Source: Flammulina velutipes (Eukaryota > Basidiomycota > Agaricomycetes > Agaricales > Physalacriaceae). From it: a stretch of DNA of 64,000 nt. Shown piece by piece: positions 4,580 to 39,300 of this stretch. How positions within the stretch are numbered: position 1 is the first letter of the stretch; every line of letters begins with the position of its first letter. The stretch is taken from contig CM022369.1 of assembly GCA_011800155.1 (NCBI GenBank), positions 3,410,001 through 3,474,000 of the forward strand, read 5' to 3'. A model generated the notes under the pieces. The model saw nothing but the letters and a program-made list of their open reading frames with translations. It was not told the origin of the DNA and did no database searches. The translations under genes were made by a program, and so were the position numbers.

Positions 4580-5332
4580 TCAAGCCCAGTCAGCCTCGAT
4601 GTTGGCGATGCAAGCGTCGAGTTTTTCCCAGAACAATTCATCCAGAATATCGTCTTCAGCCTGCGCTCTAGCCAAGTCAGCCTCAACTTTAACGATACGT
4701 GCCTCAGCTCTTTCCCTGAACGATAGATGAGTACTAGCTCACATACGGAGTGAAACAAAGGAGACTCACCGCGCACGCTCACGGAACTGGAACGGCCTGA
4801 TAACGGAACTCACAATCTTCTTCAATGCCTTGATTTCCGGAACGGTAACTGGGGAAGGAGCACGACGAGAAGAAGAAGACATCGACAACGTCACCTTGAT
4901 CCTTGCTACCTTTAGGGGCTTAACCTCCGGAGCGTATTCAATGACAACGGGGACGGGTGAAGGAGCGGAACGAGGGACAGAAGAGAAAGAAGGGAGGGAG
5001 GTAAGGGGGGAAGGTAAAGGTATGGTAGGAGGAGGGCCGGGGGGAGGAGGGAGTCGGCGGCGTCGCACAGCCTGCTGGGCGACGACGGTTTTGGGAGCTT
5101 CAGCCCTCTGCGCAGCGGGAGAGTACCAACGAGCGTCCTCGTCGATATACCCGAGCCACGACAGAGTATCCATAGTATCTGGAATAACGTCAGCTTTAGA
5201 GATCTCAAAAGAGATCTTTTTATGGTTGCTCAGCGTCGACGACGAAACCATATTCTTGATGCCAGAATGATGGTTCGTGGTGGCGTCGGCGTCACGAATG
5301 GAGACGGTGTTGGTGATAACGGTGAAAGGCAT
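4580..5332 (-). CDS. X1: Pro-rich protein with a charged C-terminal helix, exons 4770..5332, 4580..4715
   Basis: Unrecognised family; 232 residues. The N-terminus reads MPFTVITNTVSIRDADATT, close to the N-terminus of the neighbouring HNH-like genes. A Trp-containing block follows (DTLSWLGYIDEDARWYSPAA, about residues 55-75), then an Arg run and a Pro-rich low-complexity linker (about 90-135), then an Arg/Glu/Ala-rich helix likely to form a coiled coil, ending ANIEADWA. The 54 nt intron (4716-4769, GTGAGT...TTCAG) splits an Arg codon. The intact second copy (24900-25652) has the same intron and a protein about 93% alike, which supports the model. There is no signal peptide or catalytic motif. 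A purely Gly/Glu-rich frame on the opposite strand is a shadow of the Pro-rich linker. Confidence 0.72.
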
Positions 5333-5480
5333 TGTTAACGGTTTATGAAATGTGGTGATGATGGTTCAAAGGAGAAGTAGGAAAGGAGCTATGTGACCAC
5401 TTTCACGCATTTTGTGTAGGGCTAAAAATAGACACCGCCACATATCGTCGATCGGAGAAGCATGTGATTAAAGTTCTATC
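5333..5480 (-). promoter_or_regulatory. Promoter region of X1
   Basis: Conserved upstream of three X copies and in one relic. On the minus strand it carries TCTATTTTTAGCC (5421-5433), a TATA-like element about 90 bp before the ATG, next to the CACATATCG / CATGTGATTAAA blocks. Confidence 0.55.
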
Positions 5481-5751
5481 AGTTAACGGCACACTGGTTG
5501 ACTTGTTACGCAGGCTGGCGGTCTCAATTATAGCTAATAGGACAGGCTTTTGTCATGAACAAGTCAAACAAACAATAGGATTTATCTGGGCGTCTCCACA
5601 GACATTGGGAAGTACAATGTAGATGTTGATATCTTCAGATGCCAGTATATATCAAACCATACTGACGTTTTTGTTTGCCCGAAACGATGTACATATGAAT
5701 GGCAAGGGAAAATAATGTTGTAGAGATAAATAGTATTATAGTACGAATCGA

Positions 5752-6922
5752 CTACCCAGCCACGCAACCGCACTTCCGTTTAGACGATAGGGCGAATTTG
5801 CGAGAGGAAGTAAGTGTTCGTCGAAAGAGTGGATCATTACTCATTACATCCGGCAGGCGGCGCGACTGCTCGCTTTTATAGGCAACCAGCGCCTCATCGC
5901 CAGCCACGGAGGCAACATTTGAAGGGACAATGCCGTACCGCCATCTGTCCACAGAGTTCATCCAACCACCCTGCCCAGATGATTGTGACAAGAGCAGCCT
6001 CTGGCGTTTACTAAGAGGACGCGCATCTTCCGACGAAGTCGACGACGAGTTGTCAGTATCGGCGAACATAAGACGATCACGACGCATAGGTGGTTCGGGG
6101 TATAGGTAGTGTGGAGGTAAGTTCCTTGGCCTCCATCCAAGGTATGGTCGACGATAGAAATGTAGAGGTTGATGCCATGATATGTAGATCACGCAACCGA
6201 GAATGGGAAACAGGTCGCTGTTGATCAAAGGTGTTCGTCGCATGCTTTTCATAATACCCAGCATCGTAAATGAAAGCACGAAGCATGGATGTGCGTCACT
6301 CGTGAAGGCAAGAGTCTCGTAGTACGGTGCCGGATGTGCGACGCTTCGGAGTGTGTCTTCGCACTGGGCGAAAATAGGGTTTGTATGGGTGGTTGGGACG
6401 ATGGTGTATTCGTAGGTACCCAATGGAAAGCGCTGATGGGGATAGATGAAGATGGGATAGTTACAAGTGGTGGTGAAACTTACTTTGAGAAAATGCATCT
6501 CCGATTGGGGATATCTTGCGTTATATCTGACAAAATCCTCCATTTGAGCCATGACAGCGGGGGAGGGGGATATGAGAACGTCCTTGCGACGCAATAACTC
6601 GACCAAATCCGGTTGCACTGCAAAATTTCGGTGGAGTCTCGCGCGAAAGGAAAAAGCAACGAACAGTTTATGTGATTCATTGGATGGTTGAGCCACTTCC
6701 TTGACTCTCCCCAGCACATTCCAAAGGATGATTCAATCCCATCCAACTAAACTTTGGGTTTTAGCAACGGAATCTTGAGTCTTGAGGTAGGAAACGTACC
6801 TCTTTGTCCAATTCATTGTTCTTCACCAGCTGAACGTTGGTAGCGGCGTCGACACTGGCGTTTGGATAGGTCGAGATAGTCTCTGGGACGGAATAGTTGA
6901 AACTCGCATGGGCTATGGTCAT
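5752..6922 (-). pseudogene. HNH-like protein, tandem copy 1, frameshifted (exons 6800..6922, 6484..6746, 5752..6432)
   Basis: Member of the HNH-nuclease-like family common in Agaricomycetes. Exon 1 (41 codons) ends NVQLVKNNELDKE. Exon 2 opens in frame with LDGIESSFGM and LNHPMNHIN, the part of these proteins before the second metal-site histidine. The rest of exon 2 (LHRNF, VLISPSPAVMAQMEDFVRYN) is in the next frame. Comparison with copy 2 shows about two extra bases near 6642-6660. Exon 3 carries the family's C-terminal pattern (GTYEYTIVP, then PYYETL, then SDAHPCFV) and a Ser/Arg-rich tail to the TAG at 5752-5754. Introns 6747-6799 and 6433-6483 have good splice sites. An alternative reading without frameshift would need a different exon 1-2 junction, for which I see no AG in phase. 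Confidence 0.65.
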
Positions 6923-6938
6923 TTGTACACGATGACGG

Positions 6939-7378
6939 TCAGTGGAAGGGTTGAAAGCGAACCATTTCTAGTGTCACTGTCAGAGTCATCATTTGTTTGC
7001 CGGCAAACACGCACGCGGTCTTTATTAGTCGGTTTAGATAGAGCCTGGGAATCGTTCTTGGTATCCATCCCAGACATGGCCGACGATAGAAGTGGGAAGG
7101 CTTAAGTAGCGACTCATATTTCGCAGACATCTCGATGGGGAATGAGGTGCTGTTGAGAAATGGAGATCGTAGCCATTTCCCAAGAATATCCAGGGTGGTG
7201 AGAGACAGCACGAAACATGGATGCGCCCGACGTTTGAAGACAAGGGTATCGTACGCGTGATACTGTGAAGGATGCTCGACGTCGACGACGAAACTATATT
7301 TCTGACGCCAGAATGTTTGTTCGTTGTGGCGTTGGCGCCACGAACGGTGACGGTGTTGATAATAACGGTGAAAGGCAT
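6939..7378 (-). pseudogene. Chimeric fragment: X N-terminus joined to an HNH-like C-terminal piece
   Basis: On the minus strand, 7378 to about 7273 encodes an X-type start (MPFTVIINTVTVRGANATTN, then IVSSSTS). From about 7270 down to 6939 the sequence instead matches the end of the HNH-like genes: the VLSFTML-type strand, SPFLNSTSFPI, then HFYRRPCLGWIPR. The two parts are in different frames, so the 114-residue open frame starting at 7378 runs out of frame through the HNH part. It has a complete X-type promoter upstream (7379-7510). I regard it as a non-functional fusion, though a short transcript is likely. Confidence 0.6.
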
Positions 7379-7510
7379 CGTTAACGGTCTATGAAGTGTG
7401 GGGATGATGGTTCGAAGGAGAAAGCTATGTGACCACTTTCAGGCATTTTTCGCAGGGCTAAAAATAGACGCCACCACATATCGATCGCAGAATTCAGCAT
7501 GTGATTAAAG
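7379..7510 (-). promoter_or_regulatory. X-type promoter in front of the chimera
   Basis: Repeats the X1 promoter: TATA-like GGCTAAAAATAGAC at 7456-7469 and the CACATATCG and GCATGTGATTAAAG blocks. The stretch 7511-7791 beyond it is the duplicated 3' flank of the HNH-like copies and holds no gene. Confidence 0.5.
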
Positions 7511-7791
7511 TGCTAGCAATTGACGGCACACTAGTTGACTTGTTAAGTACGCAGACAGGTATCTTCTACGAGCAAGTCAAACAAACAATAGGATTTATCT
7601 GGGCGTAACCACTACTACTGTCTGCTCAGGCATTGGGATCAAGACTGTAGATGTTGATATCTTCAGATGCCAGTATATATCCAAAAAGCATACTGATGTT
7701 GTTCTTTACCCGAAACGATGTACATATGAATGGCAAGGGAAAATAATGTAGGAGAGATAAATAATATACATGGTACGAATCGAGCGTCCCA

Positions 7792-8942
7792 TTACCCAGC
7801 CACGCAACCGTGCTTCCTTTTAGACGATAGGGCGAATTTGTGAGAGGAAGTAAGTGTTCGTCGAAAGAGTGGATCGTTACCCATCACATCCGGCAGGCGG
7901 CGCGACTGCTCGCTTTTATAGGCAACCAGCGCCTCATCGCCAGCCACGGAGGCAACGTCTGAAGGGACGATGCCACACCGCCATCTGTCCACAGAGTTCA
8001 TCCGGGCTCCCTGCCCAGACGACTGTGTCAAAAGCAGCCTCTGGCGTTTACTAAGAGGACGCGGATCTTCCGACGAAGTCGACGACGAGGTGTCAGTATC
8101 GGCGAACATAAGACGATCACGACGCATAGGTGGTTCGGGGTATAGGTAGTGCGGAGGTAGCTTCCTCGGCCTCCATCCAAGGTATGGTCGATGATAGAAC
8201 GGGAGAGGTCGGTGCCATGATATGTAGGTCACGCAATTGATAATGGGAAATAGGTCGCTGTTGATCAAAGGTGTTCGTCGCATGCTTTTCATAATACCCA
8301 GCATGGTAAATGAAAGCACGAAGCATGGATGTGCGTCACTCGTGAAGGCAAGGGTCTCGTAGTACGGTGCCGGATGTGCGACGCTTTGGAGTGTGTCTTC
8401 GCACTGGGCGAAAATAGGGTTTGTATGGGTGGTTGGGACGATGGTGTATTCATAGGTACCCAGTGGAAAGCGCTGATGGGAGATAGATGAAGATGGGATA
8501 GTTACGGCTTGTGGTAAAACTTACTTTGAGAAAATGCATCTCCGATTGGGGATGCTTTGCATTATATTTGACAAAATGCTCCATTTGGGCCATGATATCG
8601 GGAGAGGGGGATATGAGAACGTCCTTACGGCGCAATAAGTCGACCAAGTCCGGTTGCACTACAACACTTCAGCCCGGTCTCGCGAAGGAAAGAAGCAACG
8701 AACAGTTTATGTGATTCATTGGATGATTGAGCCACTTCCTTAACTCTCCCCAGCACATTCCAAAGGATGATTCGATCCCATCCAACTGTAGCTTGGTCGT
8801 TAGTTGACGAACCGTATGTCATATCACATGAATGTACCTCCTTATCAAGTTCAGTGTTCTTCACTAACTGGACATTTATGGCAGCGTCGGCATCGGCGTT
8901 TGTGTGAGTGGATACCGTCCGAAGGACAGAGCGTTTGGACAT
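7792..8942 (-). pseudogene. HNH-like protein, tandem copy 2, in-frame stop (exons 8838..8942, 8525..8785, 7792..8472)
   Basis: Same architecture as copy 1. Exon 1 (35 codons, MSKRSVLRTVSTHTN...) ends NTELDKE at a GTACAT donor. Exon 2 starts LDGIESSFGM and stays in one frame to VQPDLVDLLRRKDV, but an in-frame TGA lies where copy 1 has the codons for LHRNF (about 8662-8676). Exon 3 matches copy 1 throughout, including GTYEYTIVP and SDAHPCFV, and ends at the TAG at 7792. Introns are 8786-8837 and 8473-8524. The lesion differs from that of copy 1, so the copies decayed separately. Reading through the first intron is also open, so an unspliced form cannot be ruled out. Confidence 0.65.
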
Positions 8943-22452: not shown

Positions 22453-23159
22453 TAATTGGTAGACTTGGACAACCGTAAACTCATATTAACGAGAATTTCT
22501 TGGAGGTTTTGGATGCGGGATTTGTGGCGCACTGCCATTGTGGACTTGGACTCGGAGCCGGCGTGCGCGACTGCTGTATTCGTGAGGATTCCTAGGAGGT
22601 CTAGGCGCTGTCGGAAAAGTGTTTTATTGCCTTCGGAGATGGTTCCCTATTCGGATGGGTCGATTTCTTGAGAGACTTCGAGGTGTTCTCAGTGCCGGCG
22701 AAGGCGAGCGAACGACATGCCAAGAATAATATATGCAGATGAGGATTTATAGCACGTAAGGAACTTCGGTGTTCGTTACCTACTATACTGCTAAGACATG
22801 CTACTAAGAAAATCCAAATGGTATTTGGAGATGGTGATGGTTAACGACCATTGAGAATAATACTACGAGTCGGTGGCGATGCGCACTCACGAAAAAATCC
22901 GAGCTACACTGCATTGTAGAACAACAATCGTCAAGGAATTGCCCAAGATCATGGAGCACAGCCCCACGATAACTTGCACGATATTGATCTGCCAGCAACG
23001 GTTGTTTTGTTATCGATCGTCCTGTGGCGAGAAGACCGATGGCGCAAATCCATCCTAGTTGTCATCACAATTACAATTATAAGGCATGAGGTAACTGTAT
23101 GGAACAATGTCATGATAGTTCTAGATGAGATATATCATATACCTAAGAACATATAATGC
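22453..23159. other. Spacer between MYND gene and Y1
   Basis: No gene seen. Parts of it (22560-22700) have counterparts at 30600-30830, in the spacer before Y3, in line with tandem duplication of the whole MYND-Y unit. Confidence 0.5.
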
Positions 23160-23184
23160 TGCAGCGCACTACGGTACTATTTAA
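23160..23184 (+). promoter_or_regulatory. Core promoter of Y1
   Basis: GCACTACGGTACTATTTAA; TATTTAA lies 92 bp before the ATG. The same block precedes Y2 and Y3, and in altered form Y4. Confidence 0.6.
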
Positions 23185-23269
23185 CAACATGTATGAATCT
23201 AAAGTGTTCCATAAATCCTTCATTTGACAATCCAGCCGGCCTGGGATTCTTCGCATTCGTCTTGACTCT

Positions 23270-24608
23270 ATGGTGCCGCTTCGCAACTCGTATTTCAACT
23301 GGCTACTGGTAGCCTTATTTACTGCCCCCGCAGTCTTCCCCTGCCTTGAATTCGTCAACGCCAAGTACGTACATTCCGTATAGGTATTCTAGTATTGAAT
23401 AATACATGCAGCCCGCTTGAGAACGATCTGTCCGGTGATGGCGTTCCGTCCCACTCCAACATTACACACTCGCCATTAGGTGTTAGAGCAGACTGGCCAG
23501 AGTATAACCCCGAGGATTTTGAGACGGATTCCGAGACCTCATCCGATGACGAAGATAACGAGACATATGCCGGATCCGATAACGGGGAGCCTCCGATAGA
23601 TGTTGTGGATTCCAACATACCACCACCCGATTACGACTCGGATAGGCCTCCTGACTATTCTTTTCAGATTGAGTCACTCGATAATATTGACGAAAGGGCG
23701 GGAAGCGCAAGAATCAACGGCTTCAAAGATGTCTTTCTAGAGAAAAATCGTCTGGAGCTAGGTGAGGATGACGCGGAAGGACTCAGCCGGAAATATCATG
23801 TCATTGACCCGAGCTTAACTGAACCTCTGGCGATACTCAAAATCGTTGACTTGCGCAAGGCGGAGAGATTGGGCAATGATATCCCAAAGCTCTTGATGAA
23901 AGAGGGAGACTATTGGTCCGAGGTATGTGTTTTCGAGGAGCTCTTCGTGGGACTTCACAAAAGGACATATGATATTCCCAGGTGGAAGGTGATATGTACC
24001 TGTGGGAAACTGAAGAACCTGTCGAGGAATACCGCCATGGTCGCCTGGTAAAACGGGATTACATGGTTATGTATAGAACAACTCGTGGTACTAGTGTTCA
24101 CTTGGGGGAGATGGACGAGGACGGTGACCCACTCCCCACAAAGCTAAAGTTCATAGGCGAATGGGCCCCATATTGGCAGTCAACGACGGATTACATGCTG
24201 GAAAGGTGCAGAGACAGTGCAATGAGGACACATGAGAGCCTATCCAGGAAGAAATTGGAGTGCGCCACAGTATCTTCTCAATATGAACAACTGAAGCTCA
24301 CATTGTACCACAGAATCAACGACTATGACCTACACAGCTGGGTTACAGATAATAACTGTGATTATTGGCACCCCAACCAGATCAATGTTGGATATGAGTA
24401 TCGTACAAGAAATGGGAAGGTCACTGTGAGAGGAGGCAAGGTGTTTGAAACGAGGAGTACGCTGGAATCATGGGCAAGGCATTTTAAAAAGGTTGGAAGA
24501 AGGCTTGACAGGGAATTCACTTTGGAAGCGCTCGTAGAGCATATAGATAAGTTGTCAGCATTGAGGGAGGGGAATGTTATGAGACTCAGAGGTGGAGGAT
24601 CGGGATGA
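23270..24608 (+). CDS. Y1: secreted protein of an unrecognised family, exons 23270..23364, 23412..23922, 23982..24259, 24314..24608
   Basis: 392 residues. Residues 1-31 are a signal peptide (short basic start, hydrophobic core with a VALFTAPAV stretch, small residues before the cut). Exon 1 ends at the secretion signal, and NPLENDLSGD follows. An acidic, Ser/Pro-rich linker of about 90 residues leads to the conserved core: IESLDNIDE, ELGEDDAEGLSRKYHVIDP, LKIVDLRKAE, then EGDYWSE at the exon end. Exon 3 has VEGDMYLWETEEPV and LKFIGEW. Exon 4 has INDYDLHSWVTDNNCDYWHP and a VTVRGG turn. Intron 3 (24260-24313) has a GTGCGC donor and can also be read through in frame. The phase shared with Y0 and Y2-Y4 favours splicing. 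Confidence 0.72.
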
Positions 24609-24784
24609 TAACTCCTTACTACATACCAATTTCATGTCGTCAGTAGTTGGTACAGGAATACCATGAGCCTGCAGCCCGTAGAGATTTCTAACGTTAACTT
24701 CGAATCATCATGAACGTGCTCAAAATGTGAGAAGGTGTGGTTGGTGATATCGCGATACGTTATTTAAATTTAATCACATGTTTC

Positions 24785-24899
24785 TCGATCTGTGGCGGCA
24801 TCTATTTTTAGCCTTACAGAAATACGTGAAAGTGAACACATAGCTCCTTTCCCATTTCTCCCTCGAACCATCATCCCCACATTTCAAAAACCGTTCAAA
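24785..24899 (+). promoter_or_regulatory. Promoter of X2
   Basis: Mirrored copy of the X1 promoter, with TCTATTTTTAGCC at 24801-24813 about 90 bp before the ATG. The remaining gap 24609-24784 shows no gene. Confidence 0.55.
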
Positions 24900-25652
24900 A
24901 TGCCTTTCACCGTTATCACCAACACCATCTCCGTCCGCGACGCCGACGCCACAACGAACCAACATTCTGGCATCAAGAATGTAGTTCCGTCGTCGACGCT
25001 GAGCAACCCTAAAAAGATATCTTCTGAGATCCAAAAAGCTGACGCTATTCCAGATACTATGGATACTCTGTCGTGGCTCGGGTATATCGACGAGGACGCT
25101 CGTTGGTACTCTCCCGCTGCGCAGAGGGCTGAAGCTCCTAAAACCGTCGTCGCCCAGCAGGCTGTGCGACGCCGCCGACTCCCTCCTCCCCCCGGCCCTC
25201 CTCCCCCCATACCTTTACCTTCCCCCCTTACCTCCCTCCCTTCTTTCTCTTCTGTCCCTCGTTCCGCTCCTTCACCCGTCCCCGTTGTCATTGAATACGC
25301 TCCGGAGGTTAAGCCCCTAAAGGTAGCAAGGATCAAGGTGACGTTGTCGATCCCTTCTTCCTCTCGTCGTGCTTCTTCCCCAGTTACCGTTCCGGAAATC
25401 AAGGCATTGAAGAAGATCGTGAGTTCCGTTATCAGGCCGTTCCAGTTCCGTGAGCGTGCGCGGTGAGTCTCCTTTGTTTCACTCCGTATGTGAGCTAGTA
25501 CTCATCTATCGTTCAGCGAAAGAGCTGAGGCACGTATCGTTAAAGTTGAGGCTGACTTGGCTAGAGCGCAGGCTCAAGACGATATTCTGGATGACTTGTT
25601 CTGGGAAAAACTCGACGCTTGCATCGCCAACATCGAGGCTGACTGGGCTTGA
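24900..25652 (+). CDS. X2: second intact X-family gene, exons 24900..25462, 25517..25652
   Basis: 232 residues, the same length as X1. The intron (25463-25516, GTGAGT...TTCAG) splits an Arg codon as in X1. The Trp block, Arg run, Pro-rich linker and ANIEADWA C-terminus are all kept. Differences from X1 are scattered substitutions with no frameshift, so both copies seem to be under coding constraint while the adjoining spacer and the NmrA copy have decayed. Function unknown. Confidence 0.72.
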
Positions 25653-27429
25653 GATCGCATGCTGAGGACTACGTCTTGACGACTTCTTCTGCTCCTCTGG
25701 CTGGCGCGTCTTGGACTTGGACGACGAACTGGACGCTTTTCTCTGCTCTATTTCTATCTCGATATCCACAATATTGTAGGTATGCTCATGAATCTCTTCT
25801 TCATAAGGCTCTTCCAGTACCTCTGTGGTGAGCCTCTTATCCACTTTTTGTATGTAATATTCCTAACCGCGAAATGTTTTCAGACTCGGCTATGTCTGGC
25901 GTATGGAATATTTGGTCGGTCTACCTATTCCTCCTTGAATCACTTACTGATTTTGACTTGCCAAAAGTTCTACATATTCCTGTCGTCCTTCAGAATAATA
26001 AAGTACGTCTTCTTTCTCTTCTTCTCTCGCTTTTCTGATTTCTCGTTACAATGTCGCCACCACTTGGCGTGGGAAATTTATCGACCTCTGCCTCGGACCT
26101 CCATCATCGTCAATTCGCCTCAAATCCAGTCAACCAGTCGCAGTCCTCTCAACAATATACCCTCTGTTTCCTTCAAGATTCTACGGCAATCGCCAGCCAT
26201 GAATACGAACCATGTCTTCTCTACAGACTCCAGCCGTCGTCAACTCCGAGACGTTTAACCTGGATATATTTGGGAACGCAGACCCAACATCACTACAAAA
26301 TACGCCAAGTATGCTATCAAATTTACACTGTCCTGTGCCGTTCTGACTATCTCTTAGCCTTAACAAAAACCAGGGCATATCGCAAACGATTAGGCCTCTT
26401 CCTCAAGCGAATCTCCGCATATCCTTGAATGCGTCTCCAGTGACGAACTAGGCGGCATCTATCTACTTTAATCCCGCACCCACGATACGAGTATCCTCTC
26501 TTCGGAGTCGCTCCACGTCGTCCTTGAGCATGCCGTAGTCATGCTACGGCTGGCGCACGGACCATTCTCACATGCACGTCCATCTACCACGATGCTGCGG
26601 TTATCCTCGACATTTGGATGCTCGGTACCGCACGCCATCGTGTCCGCAGGCAAACCAGTTGCAGATCGCCCAGTCGTTGGACGGTTAAAGCTGGTCCTGG
26701 TCCCGCAGTCGGACTTCTGCAAGCTTTCGTCGCCATCAGGACTCCGTCCGACGAATCTCGGTACTCAAGTGACTTAAATGCCTCCCCCGTCCCCAGGCCT
26801 CCCGCATCAACGCAACGACGTCCACATCCTCCACCCCCTCTAGTCTCGACGACCGGTAAAGCTTGAGCAACAACCCTCTCATTCTACAGCACAACAGGCA
26901 TCCCGCCCTCTATCCAATCACGCGATCTCTGCCACATATTCGTCGTCGTCCGTTTTTCGCATCCATCACAGTAGTCTCTGCCGGAGAAGGGCGCAAGCCC
27001 ACAATCAGCGACACTCGCGCGACGGCGGGGCCTACGTTCCACGATACATCGTCTTTAGATGGACCATGTCTGTCACGCATAGGAAATGGTTGGCAAGACG
27101 GTCGACACTCCACTCGAAATCGATGGACCTTTCAGTTGTACCATTCCCTACCCAGAATCAATGGCCGCCAGGCAAGAGTGCGAAGTGATTTCTACGTTGG
27201 GCATTGTATAAATTGGACGCTCGAGCCGCTGCCTCATCAAAAGAGCGATGTCGAGGACGCAGCGTTTTATGGAGAACAGCGAGGCAGACGACTTTCATAT
27301 GGTTTCGACTGGCCGCTGCCTCGCTATCAGTAGACCTCTTTGTTCGTCGTCCTGCTTTGGCTCGTTTCGCGTAGGCTTTCAATTGAACTTTGCAATTTGC
27401 CCGAAATCGATGACTATCACGACGGCTCC
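25653..27429. other. Non-coding spacer of arm B
   Basis: Mirrors 2729-4579. Open frames here are short and not shared with arm A. No gene supported. Confidence 0.6.
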
Positions 27430-28102
27430 TACTACTCCAGAACTGAACCCCATACACCGCCCATATACCGCGTCCTCTGTATCAACCCATCCCTCGACGC
27501 TCAAATCCTCCTCCGTCAACATCTCAATTCCAGGCTTTGCGTATCCCTCCGAGCCATATTTATCAAGATAGGTCATACACAACGCAAGCTCCAGGCCGAA
27601 GTTTGGGCCTTGAGGACATGGCTTGACGTAGTCGTCGAACGTTAGATGCACGTAGTCCATCTCCTTTCCGACGGCCTTTCCCCAGCGCCGCAAAACTTCT
27701 TTGGACGTGTTGGCAACGGCTTCCCCACGAGTGAGCTCAGGCTTGCTTGAGCAATCCACAGTTTACGTGAGCATCACCATCCATAGTGAGGATCCTATTC
27801 GGTTGCAGGCTCCAGACGGACTTACCTCCCTCCTAGGACCAAGCTATCATATTCGGCAACGATAGAAGATTAGTATCCAACGATGAGATATATGGTAATC
27901 TTGGCGAGCTCTGGTTTCGTTGATACGGCTTTGCTCAGGAAATGAGGGACATATTTGTTGAAGGAGGCGAGGATGGCAGCAGCAGCAGCATCGACGAGAC
28001 ACTTTGCCCACTCATACTCTACGTTGTGCGCGTCGTCCTCGTCCTTTTCTTATCGATGATAGTCCAGAAATCCGTGACGCCAAATATGGCGTAGTATGCG
28101 CC
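27430..28102 (-). pseudogene. NmrA-like pseudogene (exon 2 only)
   Basis: Corresponds to exon 2 of the intact gene at 1985-2728. The start reads FGVTDFWTI, then the frame meets a stop near 28020 and shifts several times. An intact stretch remains at 27440-27700 (ELTRGEAVA, then RRWGKAVGKEMDYVHLTFDD, then CMTYLDKYGSEGYAKPGIEM). The C-terminus has lost the original stop through a local indel. Exon 1 with the dinucleotide loop is missing, so no function is expected. Confidence 0.85.
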
Positions 28103-28135
28103 CTGCATGGTAAGTCTGTCCTCGAAGGCGGAAAG

Positions 28136-28779
28136 CTCTGAATGATGCCACAGTATCCGTGGCACCGCGGTCAACGTGCTCTGACACGCAACATGGACCT
28201 TTCTGTGAACAGATCCGTATACAAGATGATGACGATAGGAAAATACGTACACCAGATGGCGCATATAACAACATTGTGTCCTGTCTACGTCGCAATTCGA
28301 AATGTTTTCGGCGTCGGCATAGACGAGGGAGCGACATCTATTGATGAGGGTTTGCAGTGATTCAGCTACTTGAAATTTGTGAGTTCGCAACCTAAGTAGA
28401 ACATGCTACTTAAATCAAATTTGGCTGACTACCGTGACCGTGTAGCGAGCGTAGTTAATGGTGATCATCCGGAGATCATGGTGACCGTTGAGGCGATGCA
28501 TCGGCGTCAACGGTCTTCAACACCGAATCACAGCGACAACAACAAGCGAAGCCAATATACAGTGCGTAAGTCTGAACCACAGCCTCGATGACTTTTCCCC
28601 ACAATGTTGATCTGAAGCAACAGTCGTATGGTTATCGACCGTTCGTCCTGTTGTGAGAAGACCGACGACGCTAGCGCGGCCTATATATTATTCCGACTAT
28701 GCAACGAGCCAACCGGGTATGTCACCGTGAAGCCGTACCTTCTCACGGACAACATCCCAGCTGCACTGCACTACAGTAC
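28136..28779. other. Spacer before Y2
   Basis: No gene seen. From about 28405 it resembles the upstream region of Y4 at 34260-34450 (GCGAGCGTAGTTAATGGTGA in both). Confidence 0.5.
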
Positions 28780-28786
28780 TATTTAA
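28768..28786 (+). promoter_or_regulatory. Core promoter of Y2
   Basis: CACTACAGTACTATTTAA block; TATTTAA at 28780-28786 is 76 bp before the ATG. Confidence 0.6.
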
Positions 28787-28855
28787 CGATCCACGGTGAT
28801 CGATAAGTGCTTCAACAACAGCTGGACTGGTTTCTTCATCTTCATCTTAGACATC

Positions 28856-30008
28856 ATGCTCGCGCCGCTTCGAAACCCGCGTTTGAACTTCTGCATTCTG
28901 GCGGCGTTGTGTACAGTCTTCCACTGCCAAGCACAGTACGTCTTACATTATGCTTCAGTCTAGTATTTTATTGAACTACAACACAGTCCGCTTGGAGGAG
29001 ACAATCTGTCCATCGGTGGCCCTCACAATACTTCGCACGCGCTAGGTGCTAGGTTCGTGCTTCCATCGAACCCCGGCGAGGAGGAAGACGACAACGACGC
29101 TCCTCGTTTATATTTGAAGATTGAATCATTTAGCGATGTCGATGAAGAGGCGGGAACGGCAAAACTCAACGGCTCGGACGTCTCGTTAAGTGCGAATCCT
29201 CTGGAGCTAGGCGAGAATGACGCAGAGGGACTGAGCCGGAAGTACTATATCATTGACCCAAACCGTCGGCCGGATGCATTGGACAAGGGGGCGGTACTCA
29301 AGATCGTTGACTTGCTCAAGGCGGAGAAGTTTGGGAGGCATGTGGTCGAGGATTTGCGTTTAGAGGGGTGGTATTGGAGCCAGGTATGTCTTACTCCAAA
29401 GAACTCTTCGTGGGGCTCATTCCACTGGGTCTGGCAGATAAAAGGTCGTATGTTATTGTGGGAAACTCAAGAACCTGTTGAAAAAAAGGATAGTCATGGC
29501 AAGGTGGTGAAACGGGACCACATGCTTATATATAGATCAACTCATTCCGGTGTTCCCTTGATAGATGAGAACGATGATAGGCATTACACAAAGCTAAAGT
29601 TCATAGGTGAATGGGTCACAGATTGGGACTCGAAGGGAAAGACGGATGATATGTTGGCAAAGTGCAAAGACAGTGCAATGAAGACACACAAAAGACTTGC
29701 CAAGAAGAAAATGCAGTGCGTAGCAGCATACTCTCAGATTGTCTGAAAGGCTAACAGTGTGTTACAGAATTAATGACTACGACCTACACAAATGGGTGAC
29801 AGATGATAACTGTGGCTATTGGCTTCCCAACGAGATCAATGTTGCATTCGATGCAGACGAGGTCTCGGTCAAAGGTGGCGATGAGCTCGAGAGTGGGGAA
29901 CAAGAGGCATATTTGAAAAATGTTAAGGAACAGCTTGACCAGCAATTCACTCCGGAAGCAATCGAAACACACAGAAAGAAGTTGTTGGAAATACCGGCGC
30001 AAGCCTGA
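28856..30008 (+). CDS. Y2: secreted Y-family protein, exons 28856..28935, 28987..29383, 29438..29715, 29768..30008
   Basis: 331 residues. Residues 1-26 form a signal peptide (PLRNPRFN, then a hydrophobic ILAALCTVFHCQA). As in the other copies, intron 1 falls right after it and the next exon begins with PLGGDNLS. The linker is short and acidic. The core is well kept: ELGENDAEGLSRKYYIIDP, AVLKIVDLLKAEKFG, a GWYWSQ exon end, a WETQEPVEKK exon, LKFIGEWV, then INDYDLHKWVTDDNCGYWLP and EINVAF. Exon 3 is 278 nt as in Y1. The AT-poor 3' flank to 30180 holds nothing more. Confidence 0.75.
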
Positions 30009-30309
30009 GTAAATGAGAACTGAGGGTGAGGCCTAAGGCCTAAGGGATGGTTGGGGATCGGGATGAAGGATTGCGTTACATACGGGTTCAATATCTTCAG
30101 TATGTAGTAGTGGAAGTAGACATTTTTATCGACGTACATTTACGCCTGAAGACAGCAACGCTTCTCTGACTAGGTCCTCAATGGTCCAAAGAATATCACG
30201 AATTGTCGGCAAAGTTGGGTGTCCAAGTGTTCAACGTTTGAAACCTTCTCGACGTTGCATACACTGCATAAGTGGCAAGTGGAATGTGTCGTTCCAGCCA
30301 TCCAAATCT

Positions 30310-30560
30310 CCAGTCAGGCCGGAAAATGCCGGTAGTTTTCAGTCAGCGACCACCACAACCACCGTGGCACCCCGGTCACTATACTTCGCAAACGACTCTC
30401 TTTTAAAGACCTATGTCTTGACTTCGTCTGTTGAACAACTAGTAGGTCTTCTTGGGTCTTCTTTCGCGTCATCGCGGCTGACGGGAGGTAGTATCTCAAC
30501 GGGGGTGTTACGATCAACGTGAATGAGTGTCTGCCTAAAGGTAAAGTAAAGCCATATCAT
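30310..30560 (+). pseudogene. Relic: ARM-gene 5' flank joined to a MYND-gene 3' piece
   Basis: Follows Y2. At 30318-30430 the sequence matches the upstream region of the ARM-like gene at 36006-36370 (TGCCGGTAGTTTTCAGT, then CGCAAACGACTCT, then a GTTGAACAACT fragment of its exon 1). From about 30490 it matches MYND exon 4 near 22160-22240 (GTTACGATCAACGTGAATGA). No open frame survives. Further weak MYND-downstream similarity continues to about 30830. Confidence 0.5.
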
Positions 30561-31137
30561 TCAGACCAGCAACCACGGGCTGCATGATGGACGAGAGATT
30601 TGTTCAGCGTAGATTCTGTCCATGGGACCATGTCCAGCCAACTTCTCTGTTAATGGGATTCTGACGCTTCCGAAATGTCCCACCAACGACGTCTCCAACT
30701 AGGGCTTGTACGTTAGCGTTTCCATGCCATTGGAAAATATGGTTTCGTATTCGAATCGATCCATCTCGAGAGATACTTTCAGCGCGACGGCGGCGAGGGT
30801 GCGATGTTTGATTCAGCCACATTCAAAGGAGCGTATGGTTCGTGATCTATATATTGAAGACAAACTATGTGTCCAATGCAAATCTAACCGGTATCTCAGA
30901 TAGTCAACGTCTGGACTCTGAGTCGATCACTCGGAGATGGTGATGCGACAACTGTCAAGGCGAACCACAGCCCCTCAATAACTTTTCCACGGTGTTGACC
31001 CACTGGCGAAGCGACAGTTGTTTGGTTATCGACTGACCGTCCTGGCGTGAGAAGAACGACAAGACTAGTCCACCCTATCTACTTATCATTGCAGTATGTT
31101 ACGAGGCGACTCGCTATAACATGGTGAATCTACACTG

Positions 31138-31155
31138 CTTTGCAGTCCTATTTAA
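31138..31155 (+). promoter_or_regulatory. Core promoter of Y3
   Basis: CTTTGCAGTCCTATTTAA; TATTTAA at 31149-31155 is 77 bp before the ATG. Confidence 0.6.
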
Positions 31156-31225
31156 TGATCCCCAGTGTTCAGCAAGTCCTTCAACAATCCAGCTGGACTG
31201 GCTTCTTCGCTTGGATTTGACTTTC

Positions 31226-32591
31226 ATGCTGGCAGCACTTCGAAACCCGGGCTCCAGCCTCTGCATATTGGCAACGTTGATCGCTGCTCCCACGATCTTC
31301 CGCTGCCATGCACAGTGCGTATTGCATCCACGTTTGGGTCAAGTATCTTACTGAACGATATGCTCAGCCCGCTCCGAGGCGATCTGTCTATTGGTGTTGA
31401 TGGCGATCTGGTCCGCTCCCATCCTACACACTCGCTAGGTACTAGGATGTATGAAGACGACGAAGACGATGACCCGCCTCCTCCGTATTCAGAATTACCG
31501 GGTCCCAGCAACGTCACCGGTCACAACATGGCTGGATATGTCAATGATGGCGGCGGCGACGACGACTACTACGACAACGATGCTACCTACAGTAACAGCA
31601 ACAGCAACAGCAACAGCGACGACAGCGACAGCGGCGACAGCGACAACAATCCTCTTCGCAATACAACCTACGTTTTTTCAGTCACCAACGTCAATGAAGT
31701 GGAGGGAACAGCCAAAATCAATGACATCAAAAATGTCTTGCTGCGAGAAAACCCTGCGGACCTAGGCAAAAATGACAAGGAAAGACTCAGCCGGAAGTAC
31801 TATGTCATTGACCCAAACCGCCAAGAAAACGAAGTGGAAAAGCCGGCTGTACTCAAGATCGTTAACTTGCTCAAGGCGAAGGAACTTGACGAGAATGCTC
31901 CGGATCTTTTGGTGAAGGAAGGGGAATATTGGAAGAAGGTATGTGTTACCCCAAAAAGTCTTTGGGGGCCTTTTACCGATGTTCGTTATTTGCAGATGGA
32001 AGGTAACATGTTCTTATGGCAGACTGATGAGCCTATTGAGGTACTTGATGACTACGGTCAGGTGGTGCAATGGGTGTACATGGTCATGTATAGCGCAACT
32101 CATAGCGGCCTTGTCTTTGACCCCGATCAATATGTGTCAAAGCCTCTACGTTTCATAGGTGAATGGTATGCTAATTGGAAGGCAGAGGGCCTGGAGAATA
32201 AATTGAGAGAGTGCAAAGACACAGCAATGGCGACACACCAGAGTCTCGCAGCAAAGGGAATGGAGTACGTACTAATATCTTTCTATATCTTTGAAAGCTA
32301 ATAGTGCGGTACAGAATTGATGACTACAGCCTAAACAAATGGGTTACAGACCAGGAGTGTACGCATTGGCTTCCCAATGAGATCAATGTTGCGTTCAGTT
32401 ATTCGGTACTTAAGAATGGTACTCCAAAAAGGGCCTTGGTCAGAGGGGCCAAGGATCTGGAACTCGACAGCAGCAATTATAACGCCCATTTTGAACGGGT
32501 TCAGACGCAGCTTGAAGATAAATTTACAATTCCCTCAGTCTTGGAGCATAAGCAGCAGTGGTTGAAAATAGAGGGAAAAACTAGGGGCTGA
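31226..32591 (+). CDS. Y3: secreted Y-family protein with Asn/Ser/Asp repeat linker, exons 31226..31314, 31368..31938, 31996..32264, 32315..32591
   Basis: 401 residues, the longest copy. A 29-residue signal peptide is followed by PLRGDLS. The linker (about residues 45-135) holds a DDE-rich PPPYSELPGP part and a run of Asn-Ser and Ser-Asp dipeptides encoded by AACAGC/GACAGC triplet repeats (31590-31650), likely prone to length change. The core has LGKNDKERLSRKYYVIDP, AVLKIVNLLKAKEL, EGEYWKK, MEGNMFLWQTDEPI, LRFIGEWY, then IDDYSLNKWVTDQECTHWLP and a VRGAKDLE turn. All splice phases equal those of the other copies. Confidence 0.76.
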
Positions 32592-32639
32592 GAGGGATCG
32601 AGATGGTGAAGGATTAACTTACCTTGCACACTGGGTCCA

Positions 32640-33119
32640 TGTCTTGGATAATCCTATTCCTTTTCCTACGTATACCAGCCAAGGTTCTTAAGTCGTGACA
32701 CTTTTGACTCTTGAGACACCGGTTTCCGGAGTTTGCCGGTAGGTTTCAGTCAGATACCACCTGATACCACCTTCCCCACTCCCTATTGTTGATACGTTGA
32801 CGACACGTTTTGACGAATGGATCTATACTCCCGGATGAATTGTATCAGCTGAATCCCCGAGGGATATAACAATAGGAATACCCGTTCCCTAGGTGGCGCA
32901 TAGGACTTAATATCAAGGTTCCGAGTCCTGTCTCTTTGCCGCACTTCATTTCACGCTCAAACGCGCGCAATCAGAGATGTGAATCAATCACTAGACCGTC
33001 TGGCGCTCCTGACGTGGAGGCTTGGCTCCGCAAACGAGTCTGCTCCATAAACATAGCCCTTGACGCTCGTCATCGCAACCACCTTGATTGGCACTCCATC
33101 CACCGAACAAGACGCACAA
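32640..33119 (+). repeat. Copy of the ARM-gene 5' flank
   Basis: Non-coding. Matches 35880-36400 upstream of the intact ARM-like gene: TTTGCCGGTAGGTTTCAGTC, a GTGGCGCATA motif, then GGCTTGGCTCCGCAAACGA and a TAAACATAG box. Confidence 0.65.
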
Positions 33120-34090
33120 AACAAACAAGATGAGGAATTGGAGCCAGAGCCAGAGCCGACCGTTGAACGTTGAACAACTCCCAGAACTCTTCGAGCGCAC
33201 ATGCAATAGCGATACCGAGATAAAGTGGCAGGTCCGTAAGGTTTCCAAGCGATGAATTTCAACTAACGTTTCGCAGGCGCTGTGAAACATAACACACGTA
33301 TGATGCAGCAATCCAGACGAAGTGATCGAGCTCTCCATTCCGTGGATGCTATTCCCGCGCTACCGACTCTCGAGGATGAGAACGTAGTCATCGCCTCATC
33401 TGCACGACATCCATTGCTAGTATCAACACCCTGCTGTCTCATGTGGAGGCTCTCATTCCCTTCATCGCGGGTCGAATAACTATTTGAGGGAGACGACGAA
33501 TCATTGCGTATTCTACCTCACTTCTCGTCCGTCATCTCGGATTGGTCCGACCTCAAGGATCTGCTTAACGGTATCTTCGCCTATGCCGTATACGGTCGCT
33601 CTCAGTCCTCCTCTTTCATTTCCCTCAACAATCTAGCGATGTCATATACCCATGCAGCATCTGGATATTTGTACTTCGGGAGGCGCTTCGCTCGCAGATC
33701 CTCGACCCACTCCTGTTCGTAACGTGTAATCCCCGTCACCAACGAAATCTCAAGAGCCGCCTCACCCTTTAGACGAATCGTATTCCCGAGCTTTTTGATG
33801 GCTGGCAAACATCGGATATGGCTATAGAGGCTGTGGTCGATGAACTGTATGTCGCAAGCTTGCAGCATGGAAGCACAGGAAAACGTCTTTGTTTGTTGTA
33901 GCTCGTATGTAAGTGGCCCATCTATATTACCCTACGAATCCGACCAACATGCCGTTACAGTGCCCCGATTACGACTATGGTCATATCATCGAGGAGGTTA
34001 GCCGCTATGGAGTGTTCCCGCCGCCGCCAAGCTACCCGTTGGAACCAGCATGCTTCATTCGCAAGGAGGACATCGAGTCGCCGAAGATCT
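33120..34090 (+). pseudogene. Chimeric pseudogene: ARM-like 5' part fused to MYND 3' part
   Basis: 33120-33600 is a decayed copy of exons 1-2 of the ARM-like gene (a GTTGAACAACTCCCAGAACT core, then GAGATAAAGTGG before the intron, then CTTAACGGTATCTTCGCC, the part encoding LLNGIYVCAVYGRS). Near 33610 it changes to the MYND gene: CTCAACAATCTAGCGATG matches the part encoding PLNDLATI, then GGGAGGCGCTTCG, and at 33930-34010 the intron end and start of the MYND finger exon (TGCCCCGATTACGACTATGG). Stops and frameshifts are frequent in both halves. The junction has no splice signal, so it is a DNA-level breakpoint. Confidence 0.7.
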
Positions 34091-34199
34091 CTGATAGGTA
34101 GGACAATTAACTTGTGGGGAACTTGAAGTGATACGACGGCGCCTTTTTCTAGGGCAGACATACGAAACAATAGACTTCTCGTGCAGGTGAGAGAGTGAC

Positions 34200-34564
34200 G
34201 AGGGTGCTATGCAGATGAGCATTCAACTACCTACATGCGAGGAATACGCGACCTCGAATATGCTTTCCATATCAAATCTAACTGACTACAGTGACCATGC
34301 AGCGAGCGTAGTTAATGGTGATCGTCCGGAAATCATGGTGATGGTTGAGGTAACGTTACGCGTTGCCCGTCAATGGTTTTCATCACAACGACATCACAAC
34401 GCGAAGCCAAGATACACTCTGAACCACAGCCTCGATGCCTTTTCCCCACCATTTTGATCTGCAGTAACGGTTGTGTGGTTATCGACCGTTCATCCTACCG
34501 TCTGCCCTAGCTCAGGCTGTCATGCAACGAGGAAGACATGCACTGCACTGCAGTGCGATTTAAA
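34200..34564 (+). promoter_or_regulatory. Upstream region and core promoter of Y4
   Basis: Shares long blocks with the Y2 upstream region (GCGAGCGTAGTTAATGGTGA, then AATCATGGTGATGGTTGAGG). The core reads CACTGCACTGCAGTGCGATTTAA, ending about 85 bp before the ATG, with GATTTAAA in place of TATTTAA. No gene lies inside. Confidence 0.5.
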
Positions 34565-34645
34565 TACTGATCTACCGCGATCGGTAAGTCCCTTCAACGA
34601 TCCAGCTGGACTGGCTTCTCCGTATTCATCTTGAATTGGACCCTC

Positions 34646-35714
34646 ATGCTGCGAAACCTCTGCATAGTGGTGGCGTTGATTCATACGATCTTTCTCTGCC
34701 ATGCACAGTGCGTCTTGCGCCCGTGTTCCGGTCAAGTCCTTTACTGATTATACTCAGCCCGCTCCGAGATGATCTCGGTCTGTCGCTAGGTCCTAGGGCG
34801 GGTGATGAGACATTTCTTGTTGAGACTGTCAAGGTCGACGAAAAGAGGGGAACGGCCAAAATTAATAATAAGTATCTTTTTCTGGAACGAAACCCTGTGG
34901 AGCTAGGCAAGAACGACGTGAAAGGATTGAGCCGGAAGTACTATCTCTACGACCCAGGCCACGAGAATTACGAAGTGGAAAGACCAGCGATACTCAAGAT
35001 TGTTGACTTGGACATGGCGAAGGGACTTGGTGGGAATGCTCAGGCTTTTCTGATGAAAGAGGGGGAATATTGGGGGAAGGTATGTGTTACGCCGGAAGTC
35101 TTTGGGGGATGTTTATTGATGTTCGGCATTGGCAGGTGGAAGGTAACATGTTCTTGTGGCAGACTGATGAACCTGTTGATCTCAATGGTCAGCGGGTGTA
35201 TATGGTTCTGTACAGACCAGCTCGTACTGGTGTTATTTTTGGTCATATGGGCAATCTGCACCCGTCAGAGCCTCTAAAGTTCATAGGTGAATGGTATCTG
35301 GAATGGAAGACAGAGGTGGAAGTGAATTACATGCTCGGACAGTGCAAATATGTTGCATTGGAGACACACAAAAGTCTTGCTGAGAAGGGCATGGAGTGCG
35401 TGACTGTTTTTTTTTCGCGTGGTGTTTGAAAGCTGATGGTGTGTTATAGAATCGATGATTACGACCTAGACAAATGGGTGACAGACAAGAAATGCAAGCT
35501 TTGGCTGCCGAATGAGATGAATGTCGCGTTCAATCATGAGTCTATGGTTAAAGGGGCCAAGAAGCTGAAACTCACCACCAGGAGTGATTATGAGGCCCAT
35601 TTTCGACATGTAAAGAAAGAGCTCGACCTTGTGATTACTCAGGCATCGGTCAAGGGGCAACTAGAGAGGTTGTCGAAAATAAAGGCGGTGGAGCTTATGA
35701 GACCGGGACAATAA
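34646..35714 (+). CDS. Y4: secreted Y-family protein, short-linker form, exons 34646..34707, 34758..35079, 35136..35395, 35450..35714
   Basis: 302 residues, the shortest complete copy. The signal peptide is about 20 residues (MLRNLCIVVALIHTIFLCHA) and is followed by PLRDDLG. The acidic linker is nearly absent, so the core begins about 25 residues later: VKVDEKRGTAKINN, NDVKGLSRKYYLYDP, ILKIVDL, EGEYWGK, then VEGNMFLWQTDEPVD, LKFIGEWY, then IDDYDLDKWVTDKKCKLWLP and EMNVAF. Intron phases are identical to the others. This suggests that the linker is dispensable and the core is the functional part. Confidence 0.75.
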
Positions 35715-36379
35715 AGAATTACGTTGCATAATTCCATGTCTTCAGTAATAGTTTATATAGCATTTACCTGCACCTACATACAGATACAAATTTTTAATTC
35801 ACGCTTTGAGAGACCAAACGCAGAGATTCCCAGGTTCCTGTACCCCGACTAGGTATGTACGCACTACAGAGCGTCATCAATGGAACTTGGGTATTAAGAG
35901 TTCAACCCGTACTTCCAGTTGAGGAGATCAACTAGGATGCTAGTAAGGTAGCGTCGTTCTGACGGCTAGGGTAAGGTGCAGTGGTAGGATGTGTGCCGTT
36001 CGTCGGGCCGGAGTTTGCCGGTAGTTTTCAGTTAGATACCACCACCACCGCGATGTACTTTCGACACGTTAACGACGCGTCTTGTCCAGCGTAATGTATC
36101 TATACTCTTCGAGGAACTGCGTCAGTCAATACTCCCGACTCCCCGTTGGATACAACGATAGGAATACCCATACCCTATGTGGCGCATAAGCCATCGTGTC
36201 AAGGTTCCGTGTCATGACTTGTTGCCGTATTTCATTCCACGCTGACTTGTGTATTCATAGATTATAATCCACCACCGGATCCTATGTTCTCCTGTCGGTA
36301 TGAGACACGAAGGCTTGGCTCCGCAAACGACTCTGTTCTATAAACATAGGCCTTGACGTCCTTTCTCCCTACAACCACC
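35715..36379. other. Spacer between Y4 and ARM-like gene
   Basis: No gene. Serves as the 5' flank of the ARM-like gene and is the source of the copies at 30318 and 32640. Confidence 0.55.
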
Positions 36380-39300
36380 ATGGGAAACGCTCCATCCAAC
36401 GAGCAAGACGTCCAAGACGAGCAAGATGAAGAAATCGAAGAGCCCGAACCTGAACCCACCGTTGAACAACTCCCAGAACTCCTCGAGCGCGCGAGCGATA
36501 GCGACATCGAGATAAAGTGGAAGGTGTGTAGAGTTTTCTAGCGATGAATACTAACTAACGATCTTCAGGCTCTGTGCAACTTGGAGCGTGTACGGTGCGG
36601 CAATCCAGACGAAGCGACCGAGCCCCTTATTCCGTTCGTGCTGGCACTTATTCCCGAGCTACCGGCTCTCGAAGACGAGAACGTGGTCATCGCGTCTGTC
36701 GACCTCGTCTGCAACATGATGACGTCCACCCCCGCCAGCACAGAGGCTCTCCTACCTCATCTGGAGGCTCTGATCCCGTTCATCGCAGGCGGAAAATCCA
36801 ACGTCGCAACGTATAATCAGATCTATTCCTCCCTCGAAGAACTCCTCGAGGCAGACGAGTCCCTATCCTCGCGCCTCCTACCCCGCATTGCGTCCGTCAT
36901 CCAGGATTCTCCCGACGACCAGACCATCAAGGATCTTCTCAACGGCATCTATGTTTGCGCCGTTTACGGTCGTTCCCATTGTTCCAAACTTCTCCTCCAA
37001 GCCGGCATCTTCGACCTTGCCCAAGCTTCCACCGCATCGGCGTCCAGCGAGACTGTTTCCGCTGCTGCAGATATCCTTGGTCACTACCTTTCCGACGAGG
37101 ACTTCCAGACGCAGGTCAAGACCGTCACCGGCAAGATAATCGCTGCCACCAAGGCCGACGTCATTCTCACGTTTATCGACACCCTCTACCATCCCAACTC
37201 ACTCATCTCTGCCATCGCAGTGGAGAAGCTGACCGCCTTGGAAGACGCGGACAAGGAGCTTCTTCTGGCCCTCGGAAAACAGAGATATTGGATCGCTCTC
37301 GTCCTCCGTCTCCAGTACAAGGACCCCGACGTATATGGGGCCTCGGAAGAATGGGCTTTGGCTCGTCAAATGGAAGGTGAAGAGCCAACGTCAGTTGTAG
37401 ACGCATTCCGCTCCGTCTGGACGGGCGACTATTCAATTGATACCAAATTGGGTGTCGCAGGGGGCCTCGCGCTCTCTTTTGATGGGATTCGGAATGCTGC
37501 GTTCGAAGCAGGCTTTATCCATTTTATCCTCGATATTCTCAAGGGACCCGACGAACATAAGGCAGTGCGCATTCTGGTATGTTTGCTACTCGTTCTTTCC
37601 CCTCTTTCTAACCTTCTCAAAGTCAATCCTAACCAAAATGGTCGCAGACAACCAGCGCGCTGGGATACATCTGCTGACAGGAGACGGCGTCATCGACCAA
37701 CTCATCCCTTTCGTCGCTTCGCCCAATTCTGAAATTCGCAACTATACTTTACGGTCTTTGGCCTCCCTCTGCGATTCGTTCACGAGCGACGCAGATTCCC
37801 TGCGCGATGTGGCCAAAACCGCATTCTCGACCCCAAATAATCTTTCCCTCATCGTCGGTGCTCTGTATCACGATGACAAGACCACTGCGAACTACGCTGC
37901 CATTCTTCTCGCGGAGATGATGCTCAATGAGGACGGCTCTGAATCATGGAGCTACGACAGCGCTTCTTCTGACCCACCGCCTCCGACACCGTTCAAGGAC
38001 CAGATCTTCACGGCTGAACTGGTTCACCATGTTATTGGTCTCTTGCAATATAAAGAATCGTCCAAAGGGGCGTTCTACCTCCTCTGCTACGGATGCTGGG
38101 GCTCTGACCGAACGCTCGAGCTCGTCAAGACCGGTTTCCAATCCTACGTCGATTCGGCTGACGTGTCGTTCTTTTCGGCGCTCCATCATCCTAATGTCAG
38201 AGGCTCCCATATCTCGCGCGTGGCTGAAGCTGCTGCCTATGCGGGAGCGATGCCAAGGGTGTTGCAATTGTTGAAGGAGCAGACGACGAAAGAGTCTCGA
38301 AGAGCTGCTGTCGATGGACTGAGCAACTTGCTTATGGCGCCTTCGGCGGACAAGGACATGTTGTACGGGGACGCGTACTTGCCCGGGGCGATGGCGGCGT
38401 TGTTGGCGGACGAGGACGAGGATTCGCTCACGAACTTCTTGTGGATGTCGAGGCAGCTGAGCAAGAACGAGAATAAGTGGGTGGGTGAGGGGAAGTGGGC
38501 TGTCTTGGGTGGGGACGACGTCGTCGCGCATTTGGTGAGCATGTTGGAGGTGAAGAAGGAAGAGGTCGCTATGGAGGAACCGGACGAGAGTGCGATGGAG
38601 ATGCGAGAGTATCGGAAAGCGCAGAAGGAGTATAAGGAAGCCGTTACGGCTGCGGAAGAGAAACCTGGCCGGTAGGTCTTATCGACTCGCGATTTTGTTC
38701 GATGCTGATGTTTCCTCGTTTCTTAGGATACTTGAGAAGGTTCTGAGTGTGATCGAATTTACGCTCGCGGCGACTGGACTGAAAGCTGAAGCGTTCATAC
38801 GTCCTCTTATGACTCGCACCTCCGAGTCTCCGCGCATACTTGGTGTTATCGACAAGATCGTCTTACTGGAAGGCTTTGACTCCACAGTTCTTGTGGATTC
38901 GATGAACGACATCCTGGCCAGAGCCGAATCGTGGGACATGATGGAGGAGTGGTGTAATCCGGAGCGACAAGGCATCCCTGCTGCTGTTCTCAAGACCACG
39001 GCTCTGGAGTGTTTGGTCGGGGATGTTGGCGGTGAGGATGAGGACTCCATCGACCCCGCTGGATCGCTCGTGGCTCTCGCAGCTATGGTCAAGATTTCCC
39101 CGCCCGACTACGTCAAGAAGATCAAGGATACGTTCTTTGGGAACCCCCGCGCTGTCAAGGACTCGCTTTTGATTGCTGGAGGAGCAGCTGGGGAGGGATA
39201 CATCGCGGACTCGGCGACGAATGCGCTCTTCACGCTCGCGGCTGATTATCCCGAAGGTATCAAGGTGTTGGCGTCGCCGGAGTTGTTTGAGGTGGCGCTG

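Follow-up and report, generated by a model that had tools for sequence, protein, structure and literature searches.

Gene structure of the Y1–Y4 array

We analysed a 64,000-nucleotide stretch of Flammulina velutipes DNA (the window; positions 3410001–3474000 of contig C2, in a genome of 38.1 Mb and 23 contigs), which carries four tandem plus-strand genes, Y1–Y4, coding for members of a predicted secreted protein family. In the rebuilt gene models the array opens with the start codon of Y1 and closes with the stop codon of Y4 (23270–35714, precisely the span given in the original prediction), and each gene contains three GT-AG introns of 47–59 nucleotides in phases 2, 0 and 2. A short exon 1 encodes the signal peptide, exon 2 encodes a linker and the first part of the conserved core, and exons 3 and 4 follow. 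Y1 lies at 23270–24608 (signal-peptide exon 23270–23364, then 23412–23922, 23982–24259 and 24314–24608; 392 amino acids), Y2 at 28856–30008 (signal-peptide exon 28856–28935, then 28987–29383, 29438–29715 and 29768–30008; 331 amino acids), Y3 at 31226–32591 (signal-peptide exon 31226–31314, then 31368–31938, 31996–32264 and 32315–32591; 401 amino acids) and Y4 at 34646–35714 (signal-peptide exon 34646–34707, then 34758–35079, 35136–35395 and 35450–35714; 302 amino acids). A fifth member, Y0, is complete in the assembly but partial within the window, its 5′ end lying just outside; spliced alignment places its 3′ part on the plus strand at 1–950 (exon 2, 1–271; intron 2, 272–319; exon 3, 320–606; intron 3, 607–661; exon 4, 662–950).

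The original prediction had described Y0–Y4 as paralogues with identical intron phases, a first exon nearly coextensive with the signal peptide, and a conserved core. All three features are confirmed by the present models: the 2-0-2 phase pattern is found in all 15 genes that we could model in full, and the core motifs are present with variants (LSRKYHVIDP in Y1, LSRKYYLYDP in Y4, LNRRYYMIDD in Y0). Since introns 2 and 3 keep their position and phase in 17 paralogues, and since in 15/15 genes modelled from the start codon a phase-2 intron 1 directly follows a signal peptide whose last residue is Ala, the architecture is more than chance. The possibility that intron 2 is retained coding sequence was rejected, its length being divisible by three in 6 of 17 cases, as expected of non-coding sequence. 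Acceptors of intron 1 were hand-picked among short introns, as automatic choice took distant acceptors in several genes. For Y0 we chose an AAG acceptor, giving a 49-nucleotide intron, because the mature protein then starts with H-P-F like its relatives instead of Q-D-I; the linker and cysteine statistics, the selection analysis and the motif counts reported below use the earlier, Q-D-I model.

Signal peptide, cysteines and linker

Hydropathy and the −1 rule identify an N-terminal signal peptide with a small residue at position −1 in 15/15 models. Ala stands at the exon 1/2 junction in all of them, and Pro occupies mature position +2 in 14/15 as first modelled and in 15/15 after the change of the Y0 acceptor. 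No further membrane-like segment was seen in the mature proteins of the 15 models, the top 19-residue hydropathy mean being 1.07 as against 1.21–2.43 in the signal peptides. Fourteen of the 15 mature proteins contain exactly two cysteines (C6d has one), spaced 31–34 residues apart and by 32 residues in 12 of these 14. No ATG occurs in Y2 from the end of exon 1 up to the core. To judge from these sequence features, this is in all likelihood a real family of soluble secreted proteins.

Between signal peptide and core lies a linker that had been predicted to be acidic and highly variable in length, and so it proved: with our own boundaries it measures 19 amino acids in Y4, 43 in Y2, 84 in Y1 and 101 in Y3, whose linker, the longest of the array, contains an AAC-AGC repeat. 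Over the 15 models the range extends from 19 residues (Y4) to 172 (C1a). The linker is acidic in subfamilies A and B (defined below), and probably disordered. N-x-S/T sequons occur in the linkers of 12/15 models. The A and B linkers hold 11 sequons as compared to a mean of 4.6 in composition shuffles (at least 11 in 9 of 2000 shuffles), and subfamily C linkers hold nine as compared to a mean of 6.5, a count reached by 339 of 2000 shuffles and thus no excess. The motif [PL]PxY is present in 20 copies in the linkers of 8/10 A and B members (Y0, Y1, where it lies between signal peptide and core, Y3, and five others); the shuffle mean is 0.66, and none of 2000 shuffles reached 20. It was found in 0/5 subfamily C linkers. 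These shuffle tests treat related linkers as independent and are descriptive only. Because [PL]PxY is kept in 8/10 members, the A/B linker is, by its motif content, partly constrained. PPxY is a ligand of WW domains, which are normally cytosolic, and its presence behind a signal peptide is therefore puzzling.

Family size, subfamilies and selection

Searching the genome with six members (Y2, C1a, C6d, C2d, C5b and C2c), each of which finds part of the loci, yielded a pooled lower bound of at least 19 loci: two on contig C1, ten on C2, two on C5, four on C6 and one on C7. On contig C2, C2a, C2b and Y0 stand in a row; the other members there are the Y1–Y4 array, C2z (about 90 kb from the array, on the opposite strand), C2c and C2d. 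The 15 full models exclude C6c, which lacks exons 1 and 2, as well as C5b, C7 and C1b, in which exon 1 was not resolved. The alignments used below comprise 15 (A2) and 14 (A6) rows, and the hhalign family profile 17 of the 19 members (without C6c and C5b). C6c, on contig C6, consists of exons 3 and 4 alone, and the frame upstream of it shows, by eye, a serine-protease-like GDSGS motif.

When all 19 cores (two of which are partial) are placed in a tree, three subfamilies are resolved: A (Y1–Y4 and C2z; support 96/95), B (Y0, C2a, C2b and C6a–c; support 100/99) and C (the remaining eight members), with A and B grouping together (support 100/99). The treatment of Y0–Y4 as one set is thus right as to the family, but Y0 belongs to the sister subfamily B and Y1–Y4 to A. 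In the five (of six) Y1–Y4 pairs that were compared, core identity is 43–53% and synonymous divergence (dS) is 0.67–1.03; Y1–Y4 are not recent copies.

Ratios of nonsynonymous to synonymous divergence (dN/dS) were estimated for 14 chosen pairs of the 105 possible, the core value for C2c/C2d and one linker value not being computable. Core dN/dS is 0.35–0.53 within subfamily A (seven pairs), 0.17–0.29 within subfamily B (five pairs) and 0.36 for C5a/C6d, values at which the core is, on pairwise estimates that are blind to a few selected sites, under purifying selection. Linker values span 0.13–0.60, with the exception of Y3/Y4, where 1.07 comes from 19 codons.

A promoter block common to the array

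The original prediction of a promoter block shared by the array was borne out genome-wide. When the 321-nucleotide block upstream of Y4 was searched against the genome (38 Mb, E ≤ 0.001), it matched itself and the regions before Y2 and Y3 only. All are on the plus strand: the Y4 block lies at 34271–34645, the Y2 block, common with that of Y4, at 28414–28855, and the more diverged Y3 block at 30962–31225. Of the 400 bases upstream of Y2 and Y4, 314 can be aligned, at 81% identity; between the exons of the two genes identity is 59–73%. The 400 bases upstream of Y1 (22870–23269, plus strand) were missed by the genome search, but in alignment these and the region upstream of C2z prove to carry the block in diverged form. 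An element like CCAGCTGGACTG, with at most three changes, is found shortly before the start codon in all ten A and B genes aligned.

The family matches no known family in the libraries searched

Searches of Pfam, NCBIfam and the PDB sequences gave nothing that exceeded a cut-off; the weak matches were single and scattered (Nup54_57_C, 0.08–0.12; BBMV_Gp1_N, 0.035; polymerase iota, 1.7). The match to a characterised family that had been named as a refutation was not found, and the family appears, within the libraries searched, to be unrecognised, in agreement with the claim that no described family has this core. Profile searches of a protein database returned nine relatives (P0001–P0009), one of which, P0003, is marked as a product of the window. 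All nine are close relatives of these genes, every one of them nearest to one paralogue of this genome (best-match identity 73–100%, introns read through); the database seems poor in fungal proteins. No relative was confirmed among prokaryote and viral contigs, and among the open-access papers listed by word searches none describes the Y1–Y4 family in its title or the opening of its abstract. A search of the genome for galectin (PF00337) gave no match, but neither did its control, and it carries no weight.

The family resembles the effector-like small secreted proteins of Agaricomycetes in having a signal peptide, no known domain and clustered paralogues. It differs from small cysteine-rich effectors: its proteins, with 302–476 amino acids and two cysteines (one in C6d), are neither small nor cysteine-rich, and their core is under purifying selection.

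Does the core have a kinase-like fold?

In a low-confidence model, exons 2 and 3 follow the strand and helix order of a protein kinase N-lobe, a five-stranded sheet with helix C (e.g. GAK 4o38, AAK1 and MPS1/TTK), and all 50 matches listed by VIA-align for this model are kinases. A β3-like Lys (14/15 rows of A2) and an αC-like Glu (15/15 rows) fall on the expected strand and helix, in a register that depends on this low-confidence model and on an hhalign alignment without significance. The C-terminal half, modelled at a predicted local distance difference test (pLDDT) score of 39.9, was not used. No significant profile similarity to kinases was found: the hhalign comparison of the family profile with ten kinases gave 0.3%, as compared to 97.8% for the control, and window scans stayed within permutations. 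A viral fold library returned no E under 0.001, and mixed names. The family is moreover unlike protein kinases in its short region past helix E, its signal peptide and its two cysteines, as well as in lacking HRD and DFG. Because no HRD/N or DFG motif is conserved in exon 4 (A6, 14 rows), an active kinase is excluded on motif grounds, and a pseudokinase is still compatible.

A local look had suggested ancestry from FunK1 (PF17667), a multigene fungal family that is richly represented in this genome (116 matches at exon level above the Pfam cut-off) and whose local motifs we consider superficially similar to those of the Y family. FunK1, however, keeps HRDIS and DFD-type motifs, unlike the Y family; PF17667 gave no match at E ≤ 10 for Y1–Y4 or the 15 rows of A2, and hhalign of the Y family against FunK1 of the same genome gave 0.2%, below shuffled and reversed controls. 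As neither hhalign nor window scans rose above shuffles, this ancestry was dropped. Taken together, the modelled topology makes a kinase-like fold of the core possible at somewhat short of even chances, and for a non-catalytic binding role we consider the chances about even.

Surroundings of the array

A direct repeat (32726–33397 and 36008–36696, 71% identity) places in the Y3–Y4 interval a copy of the upstream region and first part of the gene after Y4, a later frame of which (37482–38675) matches Arm-repeat. The repeat suggests that the array grew by unequal duplication taking in the start of the neighbouring gene. Between the Y0 and Y1–Y4 arrays there is a large inverted duplication (1937–5475 and 24766–28148, 77–87%), which holds a paired 188-amino-acid frame (5332–4766, minus strand; 24900–25466, plus strand) with no Pfam match, and a direct duplication links 5224–6864 with 7270–8902 (85%). 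Frames at 54300–63728 resemble, on inspection by eye, a retroelement of the Ty3/gypsy type, and a 99% inverted repeat (58374–59472 and 59812–60910) lies inside this region. Elsewhere, contig C8 carries a gene for a fungal immunomodulatory protein with about 88% identity, counted on the alignment, to FIP-fve (PDB 1osy), a Flammulina velutipes protein, which fits a probable origin in Flammulina or a near relative. The F. velutipes genome is given as 35.6 Mb and 11 chromosomes (PMC3979922).

Proposed explanation and alternatives

As a tentative reading, we propose that Y1–Y4 and their relatives are secreted two-cysteine proteins whose core is a degenerate kinase-like binding module. As read from the gene models, exon 1 supplies a cleavable signal peptide with Ala as its last residue, the mature protein starts X-Pro, and a linker of 19–172 residues leads into the conserved two-cysteine core. 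The cysteines may form one disulphide, and linker sequons may be glycosylated. The core would adopt a degenerate kinase-like fold without catalysis, in which the sheet and helix C might come from exon 2, the hinge and helix E from exon 3, and a truncated C-lobe from exon 4. Outside the cell, this module would bind or scaffold at the end of a tether whose length varies, and the tandem genes with their common promoter would produce the family proteins together. The fullest description, that of a secreted, disulphide-bonded, catalytically dead pseudokinase-like family of at least 19 genes, with variable tethers and with Pro-Tyr motifs in two of three subfamilies, outside every family searched, is rather unlikely to hold in every part.

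Two alternatives we regard as improbable, and equally so. The proteins could be secreted enzymes of an unrecognised fold, with polymers of the wall or of wood as possible substrates, acting through the invariant polar core residues E79 and D183 (E133 and H162 are nearly invariant; C1a numbering). These residues are invariant to the same degree as the core tryptophans, the core is under purifying selection, and F. velutipes is described as decaying wood and secreting many enzymes (PMC3979922); however, Pfam, NCBIfam and the PDB sequences gave no enzyme-family match, and no catalytic motif is recognisable. Alternatively, as the original prediction had it, the proteins may face other organisms (antagonism or defence) or a variable substrate, diversified by tandem duplication and linker change on a core of any fold. 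While the tandem arrays, the number of copies, the strong variation in linker length and dN/dS values in subfamily A that exceed those in B fit this view, no pairwise diversifying selection was seen bar the one 19-codon linker pair, and the linker motifs are conserved; with core dN/dS at 0.17–0.53 and [PL]PxY kept in most A/B linkers, the idea is unproven and somewhat weakened.

More doubtful is that the proteins are structural or matrix components of hyphal walls or fruiting bodies, with acidic Pro-Tyr linkers that bind or cross-link and a core that anchors: the acidic, sequon-bearing linkers, the recurrence of [PL]PxY in 8/10 A/B members and the promoters common within the array would suit such a role, but subfamily C lacks the motifs and no wall anchor or membrane segment was seen. 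That exon 1 goes unused and a cytosolic protein binds WW-domain ubiquitin ligases through PPxY is scarcely credible, since, despite the enrichment of this cytosolic ligand type in A/B linkers, the signal-peptide frame and phase-2 junction of exon 1 recur in 15/15 models from all three subfamilies and Y2 offers no alternative ATG before the core.

The architecture, the purifying selection on the core and the promoters of the array indicate that the family has kept a function. Agaric genomes encode many secreted proteins without a known domain, among which the Y family is sharply defined. Thanks to its compact array and promoter block, deletions and reporter assays would be feasible in a cultivated mushroom. 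If the core is kinase-like, the family would be a fungal case of the kinase scaffold being used without catalysis outside the cell, an unusual place for it, and would merit its own Pfam entry.
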